The notes below the pieces were generated by a model, which did not search any database, was not told the origin of the DNA, and saw only the letters and a list, made by a program, of their open reading frames with translations. Source: Desulfuromonadaceae bacterium (GTDB taxonomy: Bacteria; Desulfobacterota; Desulfuromonadia; Geobacterales; Pseudopelobacteraceae). From it: a stretch of DNA of 42,667 nt. This document shows, one piece after another, positions 9,834-11,779 of this stretch. The position numbers and the translations under genes were made by a program. The stretch covers positions 1 through 42,667 of the forward strand of contig JAQUCU010000003.1 of NCBI GenBank assembly GCA_028686055.1, in the 5' to 3' direction. How positions within the stretch are numbered: position 1 is the first letter of the stretch; the number at the start of each line of letters is the position of its first letter.

Positions 9834-10448
9834 ATGTGCAAGGTAGCGATCATTCAGTACAGCATGTATGGCCACATTCTCAAGATGGCGGAGGCGGTAG
9901 CGGAGGGCGTGCGGGAAGTAGCCGGCTGTGAGGCGATCATCAAGCGAGTGCCGGAAACCCTTTCGGATGAGGTGCTCGGAATGATGGGGGCACTGGAGGC
10001 TCAGAAGGGGATGGCGCACATTCCGGTGGCAACGGTGAATGACCTGGCTGAAGCCGATGCGGTTATTTTCGGCACCCCTACCCGTTTCGGCAATATGTGC
10101 GGTCAGATGCGGCAGTTCCTCGATGCATCGGGCGGACTCTGGGTAAAAGGGACCCTGATCGGTAAACCCGCAAGTGTCTTCTGCAGCTCAGCCACCCAGC
10201 ATGGCGGCCAGGAATCAACGATCCTCAGTTTTCACACAACGCTGCTGCACCAGGGGATGATTGTCATCGGCCTCCCCTACTCCTTTGCCGGACAGATGGG
10301 GTTTTCAGAAGTCACCGGCTGCAGCCCCTACGGCGCATCTACCATTGCCGGCGGGCAGGGGGAGCGGATGCCGAGCGAGAACGAGCTGGCCGGGGCCCGT
10401 TTCCAGGGCGCCCACGTGGCGCGCATTGCCCTTAAACTAAAGGGGTAG
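9834..10448 (+). CDS. wrbA: NAD(P)H:quinone oxidoreductase / flavodoxin-like WrbA
   Basis: [64 protein letters not shown]. Confidence 0.93.
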
Positions 10449-10489: not shown

Positions 10490-10518
10490 AAAAAAAGGGG
10501 ACACCTTCCGGTATCCCC
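10490..10518 (-). terminator. Rho-independent terminator (ncRNA 3' end)
   Basis: Minus-strand hairpin GGGGATACC-GGAA-GGTGTCCCC followed by TTTTTTT. Confidence 0.85.
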
Positions 10519-10713
10519 TCTCTCATATTCTCTCCACCCTGTCGTCAGCATTAAGGGCCTCCGGCGAGTTCCTTAATTATGGGAGTCAGTATACTGTTTC
10601 AGGCAGACCTGCGTACTGAAGGCAGCACACCACAGCAGGGAGCAACCCCCGTCTTGTTCAGCATTCCGCCCGGGCGCATCAGCCAACGGGCAGGGTAGAG
10701 AGAACTAAACTTC
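10490..10713 (-). ncRNA. Candidate structured ncRNA with 6S-like architecture
   Basis: Own promoter TTGAAA-N17-TAATAA; 14-bp closing stem (10691-10704 with 10528-10541, one G-U pair) enclosing 177 nt; internal hairpins; terminator with U7. No good ORF on this strand. 6S assignment is tentative. Confidence 0.6.
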
Positions 10714-10719
10714 GATTAA

Positions 10720-10748
10720 TTATTACTCCGATGGGATAGACATTTCAA
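10720..10748 (-). promoter_or_regulatory. Sigma70-type promoter for the candidate ncRNA
   Basis: TTGAAA (10743-10748), 17-bp spacer, TAATAA (10720-10725). Confidence 0.7.
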
Positions 10749-10765
10749 GTGTTTTGTATACACAT

Positions 10766-11779
10766 TCACCGGCTCTGCAGAAATGCAGTTAACTGACTTA
10801 TTTTGTTCATCATCTGTTCGAAGCCGGGAAAGGTCAGCGACTGGGGACCATCGGACAGCGCCTTTTCCGGTTCGGGATGAACCTCTACCAGCACACCATC
10901 AGCTCCGGCCACCAGTGCCGCCATAGCCATCGGCGAAACCAGCGAGCGTTTGCCGGTCGCGTGTGACGGATCAACCATGATCGGCAGGTGTGACAGTTCC
11001 TTGACCAGAGGCACGATCGAGAGATCCAGGGTGTTACGGGTAGCAGTCTCAAAGGTGCGGATGCCCCGTTCACAGAGAATAACCTGGTCGTTCCCTTCCG
11101 CCAGAACATACTCTGCCGCTGCGAGAAACTCTTCAACAGTGGCACTCATGCCCCGTTTCAGAAGTACCGGCTTGCGGATTCTTCCCAGTTCGCGCAGCAG
11201 ATCAAAATTCTGCATGTTGCGGGCGCCGACCTGCAGCAGATCGGCATATTCAGATACCAGTCCGACATTGTCAGGGCTCATGACCTCGGTCACAACAGGT
11301 AGTCCACTCTCTTTTCCGGCAATGGCCAGCAGTCTGAGACCCTCTTCACGCAACCCTTGAAACGTATGAGGCCCGGTACGCGGTTTGAAGGCCCCGCCGC
11401 GCAGCATATCCGCACCGCATTTTTTCACGAAGAGAGCCGTCTTGATGATCTGTTCCTCGCTCTCAACCGCACAGGGACCACCGACAACAACCGGACGGCA
11501 TCCCTGTCCGACCTTGACTCCGGCTACATCGACGATTGTATCTTCAGGGTGGAAATCACGCGAAACCAGCTTGTAGGGCTTTGAAACGTGGATAACCCGC
11601 TGCACTCCCGGCAGCTCCAGTATTTTGCTGTCATCCACATAACCATGATTGCCCAGCACACCGATAGCGGTCCGCTCACTCCCCGGGATAGGCTCGGCCC
11701 TGAAACCCATCTCTTTGACAATTCTGGAAATAGCATCCACATCTGTCTGGGTAGCATTATGATTCATTACTATCAGCAT
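10766..11779 (-). CDS. aroF: 3-deoxy-7-phosphoheptulonate synthase (AroF type with N-terminal regulatory domain)
   Basis: GGPCAVESEEQI; LRGGAFKPRTGPHTFQGL; VDPSHATGKRSLV. Confidence 0.94.
   Translation of the reverse strand: MLIVMNHNATQTDVDAISRIVKEMGFRAEPIPGSERTAIGVLGNHGYVDDSKILELPGVQRVIHVSKPYKLVSRDFHPEDTIVDVAGVKVGQGCRPVVVGGPCAVESEEQIIKTALFVKKCGADMLRGGAFKPRTGPHTFQGLREEGLRLLAIAGKESGLPVVTEVMSPDNVGLVSEYADLLQVGARNMQNFDLLRELGRIRKPVLLKRGMSATVEEFLAAAEYVLAEGNDQVILCERGIRTFETATRNTLDLSIVPLVKELSHLPIMVDPSHATGKRSLVSPMAMAALVAGADGVLVEVHPEPEKALSDGPQSLTFPGFEQMMNKISQLTAFLQSR

Follow-up and report, generated by a model that had tools for sequence, protein, structure and literature searches.

A 6S RNA (ssrS) gene between wrbA and aroF in a Desulfuromonadaceae bacterium

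The RNA encoded on the minus strand at positions 10527-10704 of the window (the whole 42,667-nucleotide stretch of Desulfuromonadaceae bacterium DNA that we analysed) is almost certainly a 6S RNA (ssrS) with its own sigma-70-type promoter, an intrinsic terminator and a polymerase-regulating role implied by its family; we document the gene, its conservation, its structure and its homology. This 178-nt core, which runs from closing stem to closing stem and is matched by RF00013 and by our model R1, belongs to a type that we call A. It lies in the 317-bp gap between the end of wrbA (9834-10448, plus strand) and the end of aroF (10766-11779, minus strand), both identities being confirmed with NCBIfam. 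A preliminary description of this locus had placed a complete minus-strand RNA gene in the gap, and its coordinates, promoter, closing stem and U7 tract were all found again in the sequence. The unannotated gap can now be assigned to a global regulator gene.

The promoter consists of a -35 element TTGAAA (10743-10748, minus strand) and a -10 element TAATAA(T) (10720-10725, minus strand), separated by a 17-bp spacer. All 26 same-genus loci tabulated had TAATAAT at the -10 position and TTGAAA, TTGATA or TTGAAT at the -35 position with the same 17-bp spacing. At the other end, an intrinsic terminator hairpin with U7 (10490-10524, minus strand; -24.1 kcal/mol) comprises 15 pairs (10491-10524), the outer A-U pairs of which draw on the U run (U7 at 10490-10496). 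An automated signal scan detected the promoter and missed the terminator, which was revealed by folding, apparently because the stem reaches into the U run. At the sequence level, promoter and terminator are both conserved, and the predicted independent transcription unit would be ~180-200 nt long. Within 10726-10761 we also noted GTATACAAAA just upstream of the -35 element and CATCGGAG in the spacer; both are kept in most of the genus, and their conservation was absent from the promoter region in the other families compared. They are possible candidates for a regulator or upstream-element site.

A scan against RF00013, proposed in the preliminary description as a check, gave a full-length match (40.0 bits, E 3.6e-7, 1-187 of 187) when the 184-base gene was scanned alone. 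This is 6.4 bits under the gathering cut-off of 46.4 bits, and ordinary scans therefore miss the 6S gene: no 6S match appeared in ordinary Rfam scans of the window or of stretches of 341-451 bases. Since the match surfaced solely with the gene scanned alone, its earlier absence was a filter effect. Weak Rfam matches to ftsZ-DE, FopS and others were dismissed as chance. Same-locus copies from other genera, and from some members of the genus itself, matched RF00013 over its whole length at 41-82 bits, with many exceeding 46.4 (for instance 81.6 bits at L013, 78.6 at L116 and 62.7 at L112), and a copy 93% identical to that of the window reached 51.8 bits, above the cut-off. The RF00013 cut-off and filters overlook true 6S RNAs in this genus, though each near-complete member has one.

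Independent covariance models connected the RNA with an experimentally established 6S RNA. Model R1, built from an alignment (A1) of 19 relatives of other genera with the window left out, matched the window over its full length with 135.3 bits (E 7.4e-37) and matched E. coli K-12 ssrS with 38.4 bits (E 1.9e-11) at 284-467, the annotated gene being 284-466. Model R2, built from other 6S paralogues only (alignment A3), matched the window with 33.9 bits (E 1.5e-7). Together, these matches establish homology from end to end between the window RNA and E. coli ssrS. The 6S identity, previously raised as a possibility, is thus borne out by the full-length RF00013 match, by the same-locus orthologues above the cut-off and by the homology to E. 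coli ssrS obtained through R1. Set against it are the score of the window copy below the gathering cut-off, its lowest-energy fold, which departs from a simple rod, and the presence of a higher-scoring 6S copy in the genome (both described below).

Consistently with this alignment, the window RNA and E. coli ssrS (b2911) are alike in length, closing stem, central bubble and the GGUGNGC...GCCU.AA motif of the apical stem. They differ in the bubble template (GGGCGGAAU here, GAGCCGAUA in E. coli), in the hairpin on the 3' side of the bubble, which is conserved in the ground-state consensus here, and in their neighbours, the window gene adjoining aroF whereas the E. coli gene lies between zapA and fau. 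The preliminary description had compared the E. coli segment GCCUUAAAACUGCGACGACA (GCCTTAAAACTGCGACGACA) with GCCCUUAAUGCUGACGACA of the window; the segment does exist in E. coli, but it lies on the 3' side of the apical stem, where its counterpart in the alignment is GCCUGAAACAG and not GCCCUUAAUGCUGACGACA. The 6S conclusion was correct, although one of the arguments behind it was mistaken.

The structure was supported by both folding and covariation. The 220-nt transcript folded with z = -7.6, none of 200 shuffles being equally stable, and the 178-nt core with z = -4.6 against shuffles. The closing stem (helix 1) pairs UUCUCUCUACCCUG (10691-10704, minus strand) with CAGGGUGGAGAGAA (10528-10541, minus strand) in 14 pairs, one of them G-U, and spans 177 nt. 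It encloses an apical stem-loop (10581-10650, minus strand; helices 2-5), which includes the 6S-like GUGGUGUGCUGCC...GCCUGAAAC motif recognized by aligning orthologues to RF00013, and the hairpin AUUAAGG/CCUUAAU (10550-10577, minus strand; helix 6) on the 3' side of the central bubble. In an alignment of 36 sequences including the window (A2), the rod and the 3' bubble hairpin were paired in 97.8% of cells, and 14 of the 36 pairs showed changes on both sides. Cells with such changes numbered 111; shuffles gave 40, and sliding the partners gave no more than 22. When the rod was tested on 35 distinct sequences, helices 1-3 covaried and helices 4-5 were conserved; closing stem, apical stem and 3' bubble hairpin all covaried. 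Covariation of the closing stem in related genomes, which had been suggested as a check, was therefore present in A2, and the hairpin described previously at 10550-10577 was found in the minimum-free-energy fold and carries compensatory changes. Another proposed hairpin, CAGG-ucug-CCUG, found no support, as the conserved structure pairs GCAGG with CUGCC (columns 86-89/101-104). The window's own minimum-free-energy fold is branched and differs from the rod in the apical half, the constrained rod costing 7.0 kcal/mol, and for this reason no simple rod had been seen in the single sequence. The most conserved stretch of A2 was the 5' side of the bubble (10663-10676, minus strand), whose near-invariant (G)CCC.GGCGGAAU, defined by invariant columns and by alignment to E. 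coli ssrS, is the proposed pRNA template.

When the DNA of 58 near relatives was searched, the RNA appeared in all near-complete genomes of the same genus, and further families of the order had it at ~70% identity; it was present in 50 of the 51 good near relatives. Among cultured species, G. argillaceus has a 188-bit copy at its aroF locus. At the level of the class, the A model matched 182 of 187 good genomes and 78 of 79 genera; matches outside the order were weaker, up to ~107 bits, with A and B types pooled there. Plasmid and phage records held no match to the RNA. The gene aroF lay directly 5' of the RNA in at least three families, namely in f1 and in members of f3 and f4, though not in all.

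The same genome carries a further, higher-scoring RF00013 match of 61.5 bits on another contig (L001, G000:C37:1255-1436). It lies between two reading frames, one for a predicted FAD/NAD oxidoreductase and the other thioesterase-like, functions that we judged by eye. The preliminary description had held that the 6S identity would be refuted if the only ssrS of the genome proved to be a strong Rfam hit at another place; the strong hit exists, but it is a second paralogue and not the sole 6S gene. That the C37 copy might be the real ssrS and the window RNA something else was ruled out by the R1, R2 and E. coli ssrS matches. A 6S tree (FastTree, ~180 columns, midpoint rooted), trustworthy for its main split only, divided the sequences into an aroF-linked lineage A and a lineage B to which the C37 copy belongs. 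B-type RNAs have an E. coli-like bubble, with the CUGUCGAUA and GUGUGCAAGCC motif, from which the A-type bubble CCCGGGCGGAAU differs, and the B-type model R2 fitted E. coli ssrS better than R1 did (57.6 versus 38.4 bits). B turned up in roughly half of the near relatives that we searched and is patchy in the genus, so the C37 copy is no replacement for the window copy; some genomes, such as G029 and G038, have three 6S genes.

These two lineages bear on the function of the window RNA. It might be a derived 6S paralogue outside the classic role, binding for example another form of the polymerase, in the way that Ms1 binds core RNA polymerase, while the C37 type does the standard 6S work. The depth of the split between A and B, the E. 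coli-like bubble and better ssrS fit of the B type and the differing A-type bubble all favour such a derivation. Against it, A is near-universal in the class and B was recovered from roughly one half of the searched near relatives, so that the basic role falls more plausibly to A, and A-type orthologues reach up to 86.6 bits with RF00013; overall, we consider this reading improbable. A different proposal is that Geobacterales retain two ancient 6S lineages with differing bubbles and pRNAs, A near-universal and B patchy, that divide the work between them, for instance by growth transition or by holoenzyme; we put it forward tentatively, as a conjecture with a fairly small chance of being right.

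Two further readings concern whether the gene encodes a 6S RNA, or an independent RNA, at all. The RNA shares its strand with aroF, begins just past that gene's stop codon and shows a conserved linkage to it, as would be expected of an aroF 3' UTR or processing element; however, it has a conserved promoter and terminator of its own and occurs without an adjacent aroF in several relatives (L117, L119, L121 and L122), so that this origin is very improbable. The empty ordinary Rfam scans and the branched single-sequence fold would also suit a base-pairing sRNA that is specific to this lineage and has no relation to 6S. That identity, to which we give practically no weight, is refuted by the R1 match to the window, the full-length RF00013 match and the R1 match to E. 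coli ssrS, and class-wide conservation also argues against it.

In cells that are not growing, 6S RNA sequesters the housekeeping holoenzyme, which is then released through pRNA synthesis. For the window RNA, we infer expression, polymerase binding and a pRNA along the same lines. Minus-strand transcription of type A RNA would start at the gene's own sigma-70-type promoter, directly 3' of aroF, and stop at the intrinsic terminator; the product, as its family membership suggests, would fold to a rod whose central bubble imitates an open promoter. RNA polymerase holoenzyme with the housekeeping sigma factor would presumably bind it and be held back once growth stops; when nutrients return, the polymerase may copy the near-invariant 5' side of the bubble into a short pRNA. 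Its predicted 5' end is about 5'-AUUCCGCC, starting near the U at 10663 (+/- ~2 nt) by alignment with E. coli, where the 6S pRNA starts at U44 (PMC8876501); for type B the predicted start is about AUCGAC. Synthesis of the pRNA would open the helix and free the enzyme, the 3' bubble hairpin aiding refolding. The rod, central bubble, pRNA and 3' bubble hairpin have all been described for 6S RNA, and in B. subtilis 6S-1 the hairpin is found in the free RNA (PMC8876501).

6S RNAs occur widely, and the window gene is an unremarkable example; of mild interest are the two old paralogue lineages with their different central bubbles. In a Geobacter, G. sulfurreducens, GSUR0059 is already annotated as 6S RNA (PMC10599522), and a limited literature search found the literature on 6S in Geobacter and Desulfuromonadales nearly empty. 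Pairs of 6S copies have been described from Firmicutes (PMC8414754), and B. subtilis, with 6S-1 and 6S-2, has two paralogues per genome, as here; the A/B pair of Geobacterales is a separate case, A and B differing mainly in bubble and stem sequence. The coexistence of two lineages offers a place to test paralogue specialisation outside Firmicutes.

Several individual loci departed from the usual arrangement. In Geobacter sp. palsa_1151 (L008:4076-4257; 56.7 bits) the RNA is intact in its first part and is followed by Ns and unrelated sequence, likely a scaffolding gap. Metagenome-bin contigs of two genomes, G014 (L003/L125) and G004 (L006/L124), break within the 6S gene and overlap a second contig by ~134 bases, probably an effect of the assembly graph. 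Finally, genome G031 has, besides a full copy (L128:3391-3568, minus strand), a second copy of the 6S 3' end and terminator only (L128:1065-1135, minus strand), ~2.3 kb beyond the full one; the insert between them has a 709-aa reading frame, and an insertion seems to have duplicated the 3' end of the RNA gene, in the manner of integration sites.
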